A DNA stretch of 6,932 nt from an uncultured Eubacterium sp. (GTDB lineage: Bacteria > Bacillota_A > Clostridia > Lachnospirales > Lachnospiraceae), in contig CAQBGY010000170.1 of the NCBI GenBank assembly GCA_948759685.1, forward strand, positions 1 to 6,932, read 5' to 3'. Shown piece by piece: positions 548 to 6,912 of this stretch. The first letter of the stretch is position 1, and every line of letters starts with the position of its first letter. A model generated the notes under the pieces. That model saw only the letters and a program-made list of their open reading frames with translations, had not been told where the DNA came from and did not search any database. A program made the position numbers and the translations under genes.

Positions 548-967
548 TTAAAAAAGATTATAGTTCATGAACTGACGTTTCTCCTGCATCCAGCTCATTT
601 TAGAGTGTATGGTATCCTGCTGTTCAATGTAATCGACCCAGAACGGCAGCCGGTCACGTTCGACAATAAAGGACAGGCAGCATTTGAGCCATCCTCCGAA
701 TCTTTCCATATCCAGAATGCCGGCAGCCCTGAAACAACTGATATTTTTGATTTTCTCAATCAGCTTCTTCACGTTTTTGCGGAGCGGGATTTCTGTAAGG
801 ATATGGACATGGTGCATATCTCCTCCGACGGCATAAACCGGGCAGTGGCGGTTGCTGAAGAGAAGTGCGATGGCATCAAAGAATTCATCCCTGTGGAGAG
901 GCGGTATCGCAACTCCAAAGTCTCTTGTCTGAAAAATCAGATGATATATGTTTCCTAATGCCTCCAT
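548..967 (-). CDS. Small HUH/Y1 (IS200/REP-associated type) transposase-like protein inside the operon
   Basis: A 139-residue single-domain protein of the Y1_Tnp class, whose members cut and rejoin single-stranded DNA through a tyrosine. Counting from the GTG one codon upstream (970-968), the motifs are: N-terminal strand YHLIFQTRD (9-17); GGDMHHVHILTEI (49-61) carrying HxH metal ligands H54 and H56; and VDYIEQQ (112-118) with the expected catalytic Y114 and the paired Q118. The segment IVERDRLPFWVDYIEQQDTIH resembles Bacteroidetes REP-associated-type members, but the C-terminal tail after the tyrosine helix is shorter than usual. I place the start at the ATG (967-965), which overlaps the btuG stop as TGATG and suggests translational coupling; GTG would add one residue. 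The stop is 9 bp from the btuB ATG. No guide-RNA-type tnpB partner and no transposon ends are visible. Family is well supported; its role in this operon is unknown and may be domesticated. Confidence 0.82.
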   Translation of the reverse strand: MEALGNIYHLIFQTRDFGVAIPPLHRDEFFDAIALLFSNRHCPVYAVGGDMHHVHILTEIPLRKNVKKLIEKIKNISCFRAAGILDMERFGGWLKCCLSFIVERDRLPFWVDYIEQQDTIHSKMSWMQEKRQFMNYNLF

Positions 968-2040
968 CACTTCCAGCAGAATGCGCCGGGTATTATGCCG
1001 ACATAAAATTCATCAATCAGTTTTCCTTCGGGCGAGTATCGGTAGATCATGCCCTGCTGTTGGTAGTCGATGGCATCGGCTACATACACTTCGCCGTTCA
1101 CAGGATTTACGGTAAGTCCGTAATACTTCGTGTCGCGGTATTCGAGGAAAGGACGGACAGGAACACGGTTTGCCGTCACGTCCATACTCCAGATGTCATT
1201 GTTGATCCAGTACAGCTTGTCACGTTCGCCGTTGAGCTGCACCTCCGAGGGCCAGTCGCCCAGTTTGAACTTGAACTGCTTCTCAATCTTGAAAGTTGCC
1301 GCGTCGATGCAGTAGAGTGACGGAGCCTCATAGCCGTATGGAGATCCTTCATATCCACCGTCAGTCACAGTCCACATCTTGTCGTACTTATCCATTACAA
1401 GGGACGTGGGCTGTATGCCGACCGTCAGCTGGTCCACCACCTTATCCGTCTCGGTATCGATCTTGATGATGCGGTTCTGGTAGCTCCAGCAGTTGCAATA
1501 CACATATTTGCCGTATTGCACCATCTGCTCCGTTGAGCCGCTCTCCATCGTCATGTCAGGCACCTGAATGTAGCCTGTAATTTCATACTTCTTGGGATTG
1601 ACAATGAAGATGCGGTTGTCCCAAAGCTGCGTGACGTAAGCCTTTTCATCGCTCAGGAAGTGGATATATCGCGGAGAGGTCAAATCCTCGATACGTCCCA
1701 CCTCCTTGAACGTATTGAGGTCGATGGCAAAGATGACATGGGAGTTGTTCACCACTATCCACCCTTTGTTGTCATATATGCTCATGGACTGAGCAACATC
1801 GCCGAGTTTCATACCGTTTGCACGGAAGAACACCTCGTTCTGAACCTGATTCGTTGCCGGATCATAATAGGAAAGCGTCGCATTGCCATACTGGAAGTTA
1901 CCCTCGTTGGTAATGAAAAGTCCGGAGCCTGTTGCATTAAAGTCTTCTACCACATCGCCATAGTCCCATTCCATGCAGGAAGCGAGGGTGAGCGACAGCA
2001 GAGTGGTCAGGATATATAAGAGTTTCGGTTTGAATTTCAT
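967..2040 (-). CDS. btuG: BtuG-like surface lipoprotein, beta-propeller (DUF5074/YncE type), probable corrinoid-binding protein
   Basis: A 357-residue lipoprotein. The signal peptide ends in the lipobox LASC with lipidated C22, and the following MEWDYGDVVEDF is acidic. The rest is a repeated four-stranded-blade pattern typical of YVTN/YncE-like seven-bladed propellers: GLFITNEGNF (40-49), GWIVVNNS (93-100), KAYVTQLWDNRIFIVN (133-148), KYVYCNCWSYQNRIIKID (178-195), KMWTVTDGG (221-229), KLYWINNDIWSMD (275-287), GEVYVADAIDYQQQG (316-330). The ending VGIIPGAFCWK is a familiar signature of this family. In B. thetaiotaomicron, BtuG proteins bind cobalamin at the cell surface and form a stable complex with BtuB; length, fold and a nearby btuB-like gene match. 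The stop overlaps the start of the HUH gene. The 83-bp gap upstream holds a stem-loop. Family assignment is strong; the actual ligand (B12 or another cobamide) is inferred. Confidence 0.83.
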   Translation of the reverse strand: MKFKPKLLYILTTLLSLTLASCMEWDYGDVVEDFNATGSGLFITNEGNFQYGNATLSYYDPATNQVQNEVFFRANGMKLGDVAQSMSIYDNKGWIVVNNSHVIFAIDLNTFKEVGRIEDLTSPRYIHFLSDEKAYVTQLWDNRIFIVNPKKYEITGYIQVPDMTMESGSTEQMVQYGKYVYCNCWSYQNRIIKIDTETDKVVDQLTVGIQPTSLVMDKYDKMWTVTDGGYEGSPYGYEAPSLYCIDAATFKIEKQFKFKLGDWPSEVQLNGERDKLYWINNDIWSMDVTANRVPVRPFLEYRDTKYYGLTVNPVNGEVYVADAIDYQQQGMIYRYSPEGKLIDEFYVGIIPGAFCWK

Positions 2041-2053
2041 TCTAATAATTTTA

Positions 2054-2096
2054 AAACCTCGACCCGCTATTCAAGGTAATATACGAGCCGAGGTTT
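2054..2096 (-). promoter_or_regulatory. Stem-loop in the 83-bp gap just upstream of the btuG-like gene
   Basis: An exact 8-bp inverted repeat, AAACCTCG at 2054-2061 and CGAGGTTT at 2089-2096, encloses a 27-nt loop with a few further possible C-G pairs inside. On the transcribed strand the hairpin is followed by TAAAATTATTAGA and then the btuG ATG. The tail is too weak in U for a confident intrinsic terminator, so I describe it as a possible attenuator, RNA-processing or stabilising hairpin. It sits at the border between AT-rich upstream genes and GC-rich btuG. Presence of the repeat is certain; function is inferred. Confidence 0.4.
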
Positions 2097-2123: not shown

Positions 2124-4109
2124 TTATTCAGCAGGTTTGCAACGACCTTCCTTCATATCCTGATATGTAGGATTATAAGTGCAATTTTCAATCTTCCAAT
2201 TAGATTCTGTTATTTGACCGTCATCAATGAATTTCTTAAAGAACGTGTAGTCAGAGAATTTTCTAACGGTGTCGAAATGCACACCTGAAAGTTTTAATAA
2301 TTTTGGAAACTTCAGATGATCTGAAGAGATGAAATCTGTTGTCATGCCAAATTTAAGTGACCCGTCAATAACTTCAAGACTTGGAAATGAAGCAGATTCA
2401 TATATTCTAAACAAAGTTAAGCCAGTGCCTCCAATATGACTTAAAACAGGGAAAAATGAATCAGTAATTGCCCCGTCCAAAAAGACGGTAAAAGCTCCCC
2501 ACTCAATATTTTTTACTGGTGATCCAGGGAGAAGATCCTCTTCTATGTACTCTGGAGACGATGCACAACATACCGTAGTCAAACTGGGAAAATCTAATAT
2601 AGCATCAACTCCAACCTGTAAAATAGACTGTCCACCAATGCTTTTAAGATTACTGGCTTTTACACTGGTAATAGAAAAACCTGTTATTAATAAATAACCT
2701 GGAATAGAATTAATACCAGATAAATCAATAGTATTCTTTGAAGATTGACCGCTAATTTGAATGATTGACAAATTCCCCGTTATACTTTGTAAAGAAGACT
2801 CAAAAGTATCTATATTAGCTTCATAATAAAAGTTGTTTATTTTTGTGAAATTTGTTTTTACAGCAGTGTTTAACGAGATAATCCTAACATCCACATCGGT
2901 TAGATCTTCTTTAGTTATCAAATTGTTGAACTTATTACAGTATTCAATTGTAATACAAGGATGTGTAGGTGAAGATGAAGTAAAACTAACATTACTAATA
3001 TCTAGCGATTCAATTAGAGCGAGTTGTCTGATGACTACGCCTCCAAGCTGATTTAACCCTTGCAACTTGGGCAACTTCTCAAGAACATCAAAATTCTTTA
3101 TGGACCATACTCCAGTTACTGATGTTAATTTATCGAACCCTTCAATAGATTTTAACTCGGTATTACCCATAAAGAATCTCATACCGGCAGTCTCCACTTC
3201 CCCATATATGCTCTCTATTGATAAATTTCCATTTACTGTAACAATATCGGGTACAGATATTGATGAAAATTCACGTGGTAAAACCTTAAATTCAAGAGAT
3301 CCTGTTTCCTTAAGTAGAGGTAACGATATTTGTGTAAGTTTTGTGTTTTCATTGAAAATAACATTACCCTCAACTTTTTCAAGTTCTTTGAATTCAATTA
3401 TTGATGCTCCTGAGCCATAAATTTGTATATCTCCTGTAACATTCTTTATTTTAGACATAGAAATCATTTCCAAGGACGTATCCTGTAATGGATTTTCTTC
3501 ACTTCCTATAAGAAGTCCGCCAATCGAAGTAATATTGTCAAGACCAGTAAGGGTACCGCCAGTAAAGCTATTCTTGATTATGATGTTTCCTTCAACCTCC
3601 TTAAGAATGCTTAATCCTGTTATATCATTGATTATTTCGGCATTTTCAGCGTTTGAACCAATAATAAGATTCCCTTTTATGATTGTTACACCGGATTCAA
3701 TAAAGGCTGCTACTTCTGAGGGTGTTTTGAGTTCAACATTTCCTTCACTTCTTATCTCATCCTTCACAACAACATAAGTATAATCATTTATAGTTCCATT
3801 ATAAGAAGTTACACGGAAAGTGCGTTCAGTATTCCAATCTGTTATGGTTGCCGGGTCCGGGAATATTTTTGCTGATGGTGTATAAGCGAATGATGCTTTC
3901 GCTCCATCAAGTGAAACCGTGTATGGAACTGTCACAGTAATTGTATTGTTTTCAATTACCGCTTCATACGTTTTATCATTTACACTAAGTACCACTGATG
4001 TGATATAATTATCATCAGCATCAACTGGAATTTCGTCTTTGTCAGAACAGCCGACAGCAAAAATGCAGAAGAATAGGCTGAACAGCAAGTTAAATTTGAT
4101 TGTTTTCAT
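2124..4109 (-). CDS. Large surface lipoprotein with N-terminal Ig-like (DUF5018-type) domain and beta-solenoid/LRR repeats
   Basis: A 661-residue lipoprotein of unknown function. The signal peptide ends in AVGC with C21 lipidated, followed by SDKDE, which contains a K-D-E resembling the Bacteroidetes surface-export signal. Residues about 33-115 form a beta-sandwich resembling DUF5018-type N-terminal domains (ITSVVLSVNDKTYEAVIEN through TERTFRVTSYNG). From about 140 to 615 there are irregular ~20-25-residue repeats of the form 'L..I.G.L.I' (VEGNIIIKN, IGGLLIGS, VTGDIQIYG, VEGNVIFNE, VNGNLSIES, ITGNLSIIQ, IDGSLKFG), like receptor-L-domain or BspA-like parallel beta-helices. The C-terminus carries NCTYNPTYQDMKEGRC, with C643 and C657 possibly disulfide-linked. 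It is AT-rich compared with btuG. The start ATG lies 18 bp after the preceding stop. Such folds usually bind proteins or glycans; a role in corrinoid uptake is only inferred from the operon. Confidence 0.75.
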   Translation of the reverse strand: MKTIKFNLLFSLFFCIFAVGCSDKDEIPVDADDNYITSVVLSVNDKTYEAVIENNTITVTVPYTVSLDGAKASFAYTPSAKIFPDPATITDWNTERTFRVTSYNGTINDYTYVVVKDEIRSEGNVELKTPSEVAAFIESGVTIIKGNLIIGSNAENAEIINDITGLSILKEVEGNIIIKNSFTGGTLTGLDNITSIGGLLIGSEENPLQDTSLEMISMSKIKNVTGDIQIYGSGASIIEFKELEKVEGNVIFNENTKLTQISLPLLKETGSLEFKVLPREFSSISVPDIVTVNGNLSIESIYGEVETAGMRFFMGNTELKSIEGFDKLTSVTGVWSIKNFDVLEKLPKLQGLNQLGGVVIRQLALIESLDISNVSFTSSSPTHPCITIEYCNKFNNLITKEDLTDVDVRIISLNTAVKTNFTKINNFYYEANIDTFESSLQSITGNLSIIQISGQSSKNTIDLSGINSIPGYLLITGFSITSVKASNLKSIGGQSILQVGVDAILDFPSLTTVCCASSPEYIEEDLLPGSPVKNIEWGAFTVFLDGAITDSFFPVLSHIGGTGLTLFRIYESASFPSLEVIDGSLKFGMTTDFISSDHLKFPKLLKLSGVHFDTVRKFSDYTFFKKFIDDGQITESNWKIENCTYNPTYQDMKEGRCKPAE

Positions 4110-4127: not shown

Positions 4128-5888
4128 TTACTTAATATTTAAGTCTTGAAAAGAGAATACTTCAGTAGAAATCTCTCCTAGTGGACCGCTCTTTGCTAAT
4201 ACTCCACACTGAACTTTGATAAAATCAATATATTCCAGTTTGACTGGTGTTCCATCCTTAAATATGGCATTTGATATTTTAAATCCATTCATCTGACCAG
4301 TGCCATCATAGGAGTCCCCTCCAATACAATCACTACCTATATTGTCAACATAACCCCACTCATAGGCTTGGTTATTCCAAAAACCGGAAGATGGGATCTG
4401 AATATTTTTTGGCAATAATCTCGTGCCAGTCAGTGTGTATGATTCTTGATTCATCCAAAGAGGATAATAAGAGCTCTGTTGATGATACGAATTGTAATCA
4501 ACAGACCCAGAATTTCCCAAATTATCAGTCCAATAAACATTTGAGTGTGCGGACGCCGGACGATAGTATGTTACTTCGTAATCTTGAATAGTTGAACCGT
4601 TACCAGTCTCACTACCTTTAAGCTCATACCATTCGTCGTCTGGAAGACCATTCCCATTTACATCTTGCATTACCCAAACAATGCCGGGCTCATTGCTTCC
4701 TCCTTGATCGCTTAAAAAAGCATTTCCTTGGATTGCAAAGTCATATCCACCTTTATTGGGAATACTATGATCAAATCCGACAATAACGTATCCTCCAAAA
4801 GAACCAAGGGAAACGTACTTTTTATTTGCCAGTCGCTCTGCAGCATATTGATTTGCAGCATTAAAAGTTATTTCATCACCTTTGAACCCGCCGGAATTCG
4901 TTTCATTCACAAATTGCCCGGGTGCAGGTAAAAATTCAAAGACATTCGTTGAATAAGCTGAGCTGGAGGTATTTGCTGCTCGATATCTTGATGACTGTGC
5001 TCCAGGCTCACATACAACTCTAATTTTTGATTCAACAGAAATTCCATTCTCCTCTTCTGTTACTACAACTGAAATAAGATACTCACCGTCCTTTTCAGGA
5101 GTAAATATTAATAATGGTTCAGTAGCTCCTTCTACAGCTTTGCCATTGACAGCCCACTGAAAAGCAGGATTGTCAAAGTATTCCAATTGAGGCTTTAAGA
5201 AAACAGAGCGACCTGCAAAAGTAAATTTGGTAGTTTCTTTTGCATTATAATACGGTTTTTGAAAAGAAACCGAATATGGCATATTTTCTACTACTTCAAT
5301 CTCCAGCTCTTCTTCAGTAAGCCCATCTTCATTTGAAGCTCTAATAGTTATCGGATATGACCCTAAATTTTCTTCATTAAATATATAGGTTAGTTTATCC
5401 GACACAACAATTCCATTTCTTAACCATTCAATCTTGAAATCTCCTATATCTTGATTGGCGATCTCCGGTGCGAGAAGCAGGTCATGACCTTTTTGAACTT
5501 TAAGTCCTTTTGAGGGAATGAATAAATTAATGGCAGGTGGAAGTAAATCTTTTACTTCCACCTTAAGTTCTTCTGCGGCATATCCATTTTCATTATCAAC
5601 TCGCAATGTGATAAATACATCACCCGCTTCTTCCCATGTATGAGAAAAAGCTTTTTGATTCGATACAAGTTTTCCGTCAATAGTCCAAGAGAACAAAGCA
5701 TCATCCGCATTCCTATATGTAGGACTAATGCTTAATTCCTTACCCACCTTAACATTATAAACTCCACTCACATTATCAAGGATGATAATAGGTTTTAAAG
5801 TTCCATTATCAACAATTATATCATCTTTATTGCAAGAGCTTATAAAGGTGCAAAGTAAAACACATAAGGTTACACTTGGGATTCGCAT
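4128..5888 (-). CDS. Surface lipoprotein with three PKD/Ig-like domains and a C-terminal surface-protein domain
   Basis: A 586-residue lipoprotein. I chose the ATG at 5888-5886: it gives a compact signal peptide (MRIPSVTLCVLLCTFISSC) with lipidated C19, followed by NKDD, a K-D-D match to the Bacteroidetes surface-export motif. The longer frame would begin with TTG inside the tail of a hairpin. Residues about 27-114, 118-203 and 205-292 are three PKD-like modules, each with a W or Y core and a closing strand (WTIDGKL...VFITLRVDNENG; WLRNGIVV...PITIRASNEDG; WAVNGKAV...LISVVVTEEENG). The C-terminal domain (about 314-586) has GGYVIVGFDHSIPN (365-378), GYDFAIQGNAF (381-391) and DVNGNGLPDDEWYEL (409-423), the last resembling a DxDxDG calcium loop. 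Proteins of this architecture commonly occur beside YncE/BtuG-type and BtuB genes in Bacteroidetes. Ligand unknown; corrinoid or partner-protein binding is an inference. Confidence 0.77.
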   Translation of the reverse strand: MRIPSVTLCVLLCTFISSCNKDDIIVDNGTLKPIIILDNVSGVYNVKVGKELSISPTYRNADDALFSWTIDGKLVSNQKAFSHTWEEAGDVFITLRVDNENGYAAEELKVEVKDLLPPAINLFIPSKGLKVQKGHDLLLAPEIANQDIGDFKIEWLRNGIVVSDKLTYIFNEENLGSYPITIRASNEDGLTEEELEIEVVENMPYSVSFQKPYYNAKETTKFTFAGRSVFLKPQLEYFDNPAFQWAVNGKAVEGATEPLLIFTPEKDGEYLISVVVTEEENGISVESKIRVVCEPGAQSSRYRAANTSSSAYSTNVFEFLPAPGQFVNETNSGGFKGDEITFNAANQYAAERLANKKYVSLGSFGGYVIVGFDHSIPNKGGYDFAIQGNAFLSDQGGSNEPGIVWVMQDVNGNGLPDDEWYELKGSETGNGSTIQDYEVTYYRPASAHSNVYWTDNLGNSGSVDYNSYHQQSSYYPLWMNQESYTLTGTRLLPKNIQIPSSGFWNNQAYEWGYVDNIGSDCIGGDSYDGTGQMNGFKISNAIFKDGTPVKLEYIDFIKVQCGVLAKSGPLGEISTEVFSFQDLNIK

Positions 5889-5907
5889 TGTTTCTTTAAA
5901 ATACAAA

Positions 5908-5949
5908 TATGGTAAGCAACAATAGGATTAACCAAAGTTGCTTACCATA
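5908..5949 (-). terminator. Strong stem-loop with T-rich tail between the first and second genes (terminator or attenuator)
   Basis: A perfect 13-bp inverted repeat: TATGGTAAGCAAC at 5908-5920 and its reverse complement at 5937-5949, with a 16-nt loop. On the transcribed strand it begins 6 bp after the DUF4465 stop codon and is followed directly by TTTGTATTTT, which is the layout of an intrinsic terminator. The stem is long but only moderately GC-rich and the U run is interrupted, and the next gene begins only 19 bp further on. Partial termination or 3'-end stabilisation of the first cistron, giving more of the first protein than of the later ones, is therefore likelier than complete termination. 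The repeat is directly visible; its effect is inferred. Confidence 0.55.
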
Positions 5950-5955
5950 GTTAGA

Positions 5956-6912
5956 TTATTCAATAGTAATATCATCAAGGCAAATATAGGCTGGAGTGTT
6001 CAGACCGTAGTCCCCCGTATCCGAACCAGAGAAGTTCAGTTTTACGGTTTTTACATTTGCCTGATTAATTGGCCAGTACGTCCAAGTGGTAACAGGATCT
6101 TGTTTTTTCCCGTTTCTGTAGTCTGCCAAAGTTTGAACATAGGTGGCCAACAGTTCACCATTTTCATTATAACATTCTAATTCAACTTGAAAATAGCCAA
6201 TATAATTTCCATTACCATCAACTTGCTTTGATAAAGGTGTAGCTACACCAGAAGCGCCAAATTGATTGCCTTTCATTATCACTCCATATGTATAGGAAGA
6301 GTTACAAAACCACAGACCTTTTAGAGTTTTTTTTCGGATAAAAGAGAAAGAAGGCTTAGCCATCCACTGTGAATTGTAAAAATCCTGATACCCATATACA
6401 ACTGCAAAGTTATTGCCACTATGACCTGCATTAACATTAGCTCCGTCAGTTGAAGTGGTGTTGTACACACTCATCTGATTGTTATATGAATACCACCAAT
6501 CGCCAGTTCCAGAACCGGTAATATTGGCACCATTACCAGGATTCGACCGATAGTTCCATTTAGAAAGAGCCAGACCGCCATTATAGAAGGCGGTAGAACC
6601 ACCAATTACATTGATTGATGACTCAAAGATGCCAGAAGGATCTTTAATTTGCTTTACCTGAGCATAGCTTCCGGTATTACCGTAATAGTTTGCACCATAA
6701 GAAGTGGGCATTGCCATCATGGTTGATTCAAAATCATCAAACGTGATGATTGTTGAATCGCCTTGCACGACCGCACGACTAACTGGGTTCTCAAACTCCA
6801 TTTTGCTCTCAAAGTCGGCGAATGGTTCATCTTCACTGGAACATCCGGTGAAGATGGCTGCTGTGACCGCTACGGTCGTCAGAGCCAAGAATTTAGTAAA
6901 ATGTTTTCTCAT
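5956..6912 (-). CDS. DUF4465-domain lipoprotein, first gene of the putative corrinoid-uptake operon
   Basis: A 318-residue lipoprotein. The signal peptide ends in FTGC with lipidated C24, followed by SSEDEP, acidic as expected for surface export. After a ~30-residue linker the DUF4465 domain fills about 55-318: ITFDDFE (56-62), YNGGLALSKWNYRS (110-123), NQMSVYN (145-151), HSGNNFAVVYG (164-174), NSSYTYGVIMKG (204-215), TLADYRNG (261-268) and the closing GSDTGDYGLNTPAYICLDDI (296-315). These aromatic- and Gly-rich strands suggest a jelly-roll-like beta-sandwich that binds a ligand. In Bacteroides, B12 loci encode an additional surface B12-binding lipoprotein, BtuH; this gene is a candidate for that role by position and type, but I cannot confirm the homology without a search, so no symbol is given. 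Its ATG lies 20 bp from the window edge; the operon leader and any riboswitch are outside. Confidence 0.8.
   Translation of the reverse strand: MRKHFTKFLALTTVAVTAAIFTGCSSEDEPFADFESKMEFENPVSRAVVQGDSTIITFDDFESTMMAMPTSYGANYYGNTGSYAQVKQIKDPSGIFESSINVIGGSTAFYNGGLALSKWNYRSNPGNGANITGSGTGDWWYSYNNQMSVYNTTSTDGANVNAGHSGNNFAVVYGYQDFYNSQWMAKPSFSFIRKKTLKGLWFCNSSYTYGVIMKGNQFGASGVATPLSKQVDGNGNYIGYFQVELECYNENGELLATYVQTLADYRNGKKQDPVTTWTYWPINQANVKTVKLNFSGSDTGDYGLNTPAYICLDDITIE

Follow-up and report, generated by a model that had tools for sequence, protein, structure and literature searches.

In TnpA chemistry, two histidines and a glutamine bind metal and a tyrosine acts as the nucleophile. To our knowledge, RAYT/REP is the main known case of domestication among single-strand transposases. 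RAYT (TnpAREP) is described as a solitary Y1 gene that is thought to be domesticated (PMC8266576), and it belongs to the same fold class as the gene treated here. TnpAY1 subclass 1.2 groups short Y1 HUH proteins that Bacteroidetes and Cyanobacteria carry in low copy number; they have a YxxxQ motif and lie near IS200 TnpA, and typical terminal structures are described as generally absent from the class (PMC6006769). In the btu operons of Bacteroides, btuG adjoins btuB (PMC10404256), as in the operon described below. As far as titles and abstract beginnings of open-licence papers go, no Y1/HUH gene in a btu operon has been described, and the accessible parts of PMC8987985 and PMC4990558 contain nothing bearing on such a gene.

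The window (the whole stretch of 6,932 nucleotides that was analysed) contains a Y1/HUH gene, referred to here as btu-HUH, translationally coupled between a btuG-like and a btuB-like gene. It is contained in a one-contig genome of 3.31 Mb (G000); the two differ at 9 of the 6932 positions, including one inside the HUH gene. This gene lies at 548–967 on the minus strand including the stop codon (ATG at 967–965, stop at 550–548) and encodes 139 amino acids. The open reading frame extends to an alternative upstream GTG start at 970, from which the first-pass annotation had counted its intact H54, H56, Y114 and Q118; counted from the ATG, these residues are H53, H55, Y113 and Q117. The btuG-like gene for a surface lipoprotein (DUF5074; 967–2040, minus) ends in a TGA whose A is also the first base of the HUH ATG (TGATG at 969–965), and a spacer of 9 bp (539–547, minus), too small for an IS end, separates the HUH stop from the ATG of the gene for a btuB-like TonB-dependent receptor (1–538, minus). 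The latter is truncated by the window end to its N-terminal part with the plug domain (Pfam TonB plug), and its full length in the genome is 697 amino acids. On the same strand and in the same operon follow, by Pfam matches, genes for a receptor-L/LRR-type surface protein (Recep_L; 2124–4109), a PKD-domain surface protein (PKD_3; 4128–5906) and a DUF4465 (BtuH-like) protein (5956–6912), with the last of which the operon opens inside the window; B12 binding by DUF4465 proteins is described in the literature, as far as the accessible part of it goes. The annotated junction geometry and the common direction of the HUH gene and its flanking btu genes were thus verified from the coordinates.

The gene order of the operon is riboswitch, DUF4465, PKD, receptor-L/LRR, btuG, HUH, btuB, btuF, btuC and btuD. 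An Rfam scan of the window itself matched no family, and a cobalamin riboswitch (RF00174) is located about 160 bp past the window end (G000:C1:60984-61188); a cobalamin riboswitch was found upstream of the operon in all four loci scanned. Strong intergenic hairpins are present within the operon at 2054–2096 (minus, upstream of btuG) and 5908–5949. The proposal that such hairpins are specific targets of the HUH protein found no support, since the hairpin at 2054–2096 is also present in G206, a locus without HUH. It is conserved among loci with and without the gene, and the operon hairpins are therefore perhaps elements of mRNA processing or stability.

The window protein matches Pfam Y1_Tnp with 28.9 bits (cut-off 23), and its score of 20.7 bits against the NCBIfam IS200 equivalog is below the cut-off of 55. 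Motif, alignment and structure comparison place the HUH motif, tyrosine and glutamine in a TnpA fold, and H53, H55, Y113 and Q117 are invariant across 48 aligned sequences including the window protein. In all seven loci with context, the HUH gene is found at the btuG–btuB junction. Five of them belong to clade A (G000, G012, G123, Duncaniella muris of the Muribaculaceae (L003), and a MAG (L004)), and two near-identical loci to clade B (MT835494, L276; G748, L277). The seven loci hold five distinct HUH proteins, because L003 and G123 (L074) are identical over 4071 bp and L276 and L277 have the same HUH protein. G748 is from another Bacteroidales family, and the clade B HUH is about 30% identical to that of the window. 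Both clades have the TGATG overlap between the btuG stop and the HUH start, and in clade B the HUH gene also overlaps btuB as ATGA. One junction is thus kept over two clades about 30% identical, in seven loci, a pattern that recombination could mimic. MT835494.1 was submitted as a bacteriophage scaffold; it contains btuG-HUH-btuB with neighbouring genes and encodes a BtuG 100% identical to that of G748. It is probably part of a bacterial chromosome or an integrative element.

Copies more than 90% identical to the window protein were found in 3 of 397 genomes of the family (G000, G012 and G123), the next best being 24–30% identical; at the level of the order, 2 of 393 genomes scored above 200 bits and the next best 96. 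A profile including a clade B member found 46 proteins, among them one labelled as from Bacteroides ovatus and one as from Alistipes finegoldii. Among 29 loci (L276–L304, mostly with 1.5 kb of flank), btuG or btuB was nearby only in L276 and L277. Plasmid searches with the window protein and P0126 gave no match, nor did searches of viral contigs with alignment A4, P0121 and a BtuG; P0130 gave one weak partial match. In a tree against other Y1 members, as the first-pass annotation had suggested building, a branch with support 100/93 separates the 19 btu-HUH rows, of which one is short at the N-terminus, from 69 other rows. The search for orthologues bore out the location between btuG and btuB, and the distribution proved patchy, with HUH in 5 of 90 junctions.

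This census started from 116 btuG loci, of which 9 with a weak btuG match and 17 without btuB in reach were left out, leaving 90, two of which (L003 and L074) are identical. The count of HUH junctions becomes 3 of 88 when L003 and L004, which entered via the HUH search itself, are set aside. The gap between btuG and btuB is at most 142 nt in 75 of the 90 loci and exceeds 300 nt in 15, which contain HUH (5), a four-helix-bundle gene of PF05635 (6), a RAYT-like gene (3) or a PDDEXK_3 gene (1); two RAYT-like genes and the PDDEXK_3 gene were identified by search and the RAYT-like gene of L089 by eye. The G206 junction is clean and empty, with the btuB ATG read as overlapping the btuG stop; its BtuG and BtuB are 97% and 95.5% identical to those of the window. 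The second btuG–btuB locus of the G000 genome (L064) is also empty. The earlier argument that insertion is unlikely, for want of room for ends, is contradicted by the empty sites, which indicate that the HUH gene came in by insertion; a clean empty site in a related locus had itself been named as a mark of mobile insertion. The patchiness of HUH and the abundance of empty junctions, one of them beside a 97% identical BtuG, speak against a necessary role.

The ten non-HUH inserts carry repeats of their own. RAYT-like Y1 genes with GGTCGTTCC-type palindromes are found in L037, L080 and L089; PF05635 (23S rRNA intervening-sequence protein) genes with 7-bp arrays lie at the junction in L036, L076, L077, L079, L104, L113 and L091; and a PDDEXK_3 gene with 8-bp repeats is found in L097. 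By inspection, the downstream repeat enters the start of btuB in all ten, including the six PF05635 loci with btuB in reach, and encodes part of the signal peptide (the GTG start in L089 being assigned by eye). Since 7 and 8 are coprime to 3, such repeats encode the same rotating peptide in every forward frame, and that of the 7-bp arrays is largely hydrophobic in all three. Apparent remnants of inserts were seen in L038, L115, L081 and L042; in the first two, a deletion seems to have joined the opening codons of the four-helix-bundle gene in frame to btuB. The window itself has a degraded 7-bp periodicity in the btuB signal-peptide segment (475–509, minus; lag-7 shuffle p 0.01), likely a relic of a heptamer array; the corresponding p is at most 0.001 in D. 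muris and L004, and 0.84 in the ordinary leader of L086. Arrays of the (TTGTGCA)n type are abundant in some Muribaculaceae genomes (G022, G110, G124 and G302) and had no match in 5 of the 14 genomes searched, including that of the window; a reversed-pattern control gave 0 in all 14. Heptamer arrays preceding start codons are described, in the accessible part of PMC4679880, in other bacteria. As general donors of signal peptides they were rejected and kept only for the btuB junction, since 3 of 42 arrays from G022 and G110 (the btuB array excluded; two more were cut by a contig end) run into a frame of at least 80 amino acids. The btuG–btuB joint of a transferred vitamin operon thus serves as a landing site for small ORFs of several unrelated kinds.

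The flanks of btu-HUH were compared with those of its relatives. Among 64 loci of relatives searched, 55 matched and 50 were used, after leaving out L182 (broken frame), L158 and L202 (duplicates), and L006 and L020 (short flanks). These 50 Bacteroidales loci of the subclass 1.2 type (among L002, L007–L033, L161–L184 and L201–L206) had flanking inverted repeats above all 300 shuffles in 44 cases, within 150 bp on each side, and the same test on control regions 900 bp away was positive in 1 of 88. Repeat lengths range from 13 to about 115 bp, and compound palindromes are frequent among them. At the btu-HUH loci, none of six had inverted repeats above shuffles within 150 bp per side: four gave z from −0.6 to 1.4, and two scored 16 against a shuffled mean of 15.3. 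The missing ends are a strong tendency and not proof, because 6 of the 50 relatives are also without detectable repeats. A search of the genome for further copies found one other relative only, about 25% identical, and no near-identical copy with hairpin ends, which the first-pass annotation had said would point to a mobile insertion. Missing ends together with a single location suggest that the gene is immobile.

The two clades differ at the nucleophile. Tyrosine is present in all seven clade A rows, including the window, and in 1 of 19 clade B rows (P0131), some of which are near-duplicates or fragments, or 1 of 13 of those in the tree; elsewhere in clade B it is replaced by His, Leu, Arg or Phe. 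H53, H55, W93, Q117 and H121 are kept in all 26 rows of the two clades, in a table from which 21 of the 46 profile-found proteins (P0143–P0163, mostly fragments or chimeras) were left out. The clade B rows tested are 57–84% identical, and the order of helices and strands is unchanged in the predicted structure of clade B (pLDDT 85.5). Clade B should therefore not perform Y1 transposition chemistry, with its metal site retained. A sister clade at the same site without the cutting residue suggests that the gene was probably recruited for some other job. In clade A, dN/dS is 0.05–0.16 for HUH (0.01–0.08 for BtuG), with 4–9 nonsynonymous changes (about 333 sites) against 6–17 synonymous (about 84 sites) per pair (Fisher p 0.006 to 1e-9), the pairs being not independent and drawn from 4 distinct nucleotide sequences only. 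The purifying selection that had been proposed as a check is thus indicated by codon comparison, amino-acid changes being scarce.

Recombination has shaped the locus. L004 and the window are 95–97% identical in BtuG, HUH and BtuB and 40–52% in the three upstream proteins. Between G000 and G012, an identical tract of about 400 bp bridges the 3' end of btuG and the 5' end of HUH, and similar tracts occur inside btuB; alignments thus indicate mosaic recombination. Window and G748 are 86% identical in BtuG, 81% in BtuB, 45% in the LRR protein and 29.5% in HUH, so that the two HUHs have not simply kept step with BtuG and BtuB. This comparison falls short of simple co-descent, and HUH may possibly have been replaced or have arrived repeatedly at one site. 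A circular record of 73 kb from Bacteroides finegoldii (L307, NZ_OY725920.1) holds a complete btu operon beside a phage-integrase-like gene, without HUH and with 18 bp between btuG and btuB; circularity and integrase suggest that the operon may travel on a mobile element.

We lean, with modest confidence, towards the reading that btu-HUH is an exapted accessory gene of the B12 operon, including the following steps. The family would have left a lineage of Y1 transposases flanked by inverted repeats and settled as a co-translated accessory gene between btuG and btuB of a cobalamin-riboswitch operon in Bacteroidales. Its present spread would depend on horizontal transfer and homologous recombination of the operon, and not on transposition of its own. 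It may have retained metal-dependent binding of structured nucleic acid, with perhaps nicking in clade A; its target would most likely be the mRNA or DNA of the operon itself, and BtuB output might be tuned relative to BtuG when the riboswitch permits expression. Exaptation is the claim here; tuning is a guess that we hold to be doubtful. Our best guess for the product is a putative nucleic-acid-binding accessory of the B12 operon. A bolder version, offered as a tentative possibility, sees in btu-HUH a new class of HUH regulator resident in an operon: a former transposase turned metal-dependent, nucleic-acid-binding member of the B12 regulon, nuclease-dead in clade B, which would be translated between BtuG and BtuB, set their ratio and have passed from active to dead without leaving its site. 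The first-pass interpretation is partly supported overall: domestication is plausible, given the same-site sister clade without the nucleophile, the missing ends and the selection, whereas the RAYT-like character it proposed fails on motif and palindromes.

The chief rival, which we consider rather unlikely, is a homing-type selfish gene, whose nuclease would nick the uninterrupted btuG–btuB junction and be copied in via recombination of the flanks; the overlap with btuG and the short gap before btuB would make it harmless, and clade B would consist of copies whose active phase is over. A fixed site that is either occupied or cleanly empty, the absence of ends, the mosaic flanks with the tract of about 400 bp, an HUH far more diverged between clades than BtuG and BtuB, and the intact active site of clade A are all as this would predict. 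Yet HxH, Gln and His persist in all tested clade B rows after the loss of tyrosine, which decaying homing genes should not do; the identical tracts within btuB mean that the mosaic is not special to HUH; and cutting of the junction is putative, no cleavage site being known. A neutral passenger, that is, a transposase gene that strayed into a permissive junction, has yet to decay and is kept only since its loss would disturb coupling, is unlikely to a slightly greater degree. Unrelated small ORFs at the junction in 10 other loci of the 90, and the resemblance of L038, L115 and L081 to remnants after deletion, fit it, but purifying selection in clade A and a diverse family with invariant metal-site residues do not. 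An ordinary mobile insertion of the IS200/IS605 type, for which the Pfam Y1_Tnp match, fold and intact catalytic residues would speak, is largely refuted and most improbable: it was rejected on missing ends and single copy, and the failed NCBIfam cut-off and the one location in loci with context agree. The first-pass annotation was right that this is no ordinary IS. If exaptation is true, the domesticated transposase belongs to a defined metabolic operon in gut Bacteroidales, and the natural pair before and after (tyrosine kept and tyrosine lost) makes the role of a transposase after transposition directly testable.

Among the known systems closest to btu-HUH is subclass 1.2, to which the general relatives, about 18–31% identical, were assigned by motif. 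The low copy number and the occurrence in Bacteroidetes/Cyanobacteria given for the subclass apply to btu-HUH; against the signature Y---Q--HH, the window has YIEQQDTIH, with tyrosine, glutamine and the second histidine present and isoleucine for the first, and the C-terminal segment of the subclass is absent, the window protein ending at 139, 10 residues after E129 (signature and traits from the accessible part of PMC6006769). Clade B proteins are longer at the C-terminus than the window protein. The flanking inverted repeats common in subclass 1.2-type relatives were not detected at btu-HUH. Membership in RAYT was ruled out by the tyrosine motif, the YIxxNP type (PMC6006769) being absent, and by the missing REP-type palindromes, which are present at the RAYT-like junction inserts. 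The TnpA of IS608 and ISDra2 (subclass 1.1) has the same fold and the same HUH-Tyr-Gln site as the window protein; unlike these, btu-HUH is without detectable ends or evidence of mobility and has a sister clade without tyrosine. While the accessible text on Bacteroides btu operons mentions no further gene at this joint (PMC10404256), in the window a third, coupled gene lies between btuG and btuB.
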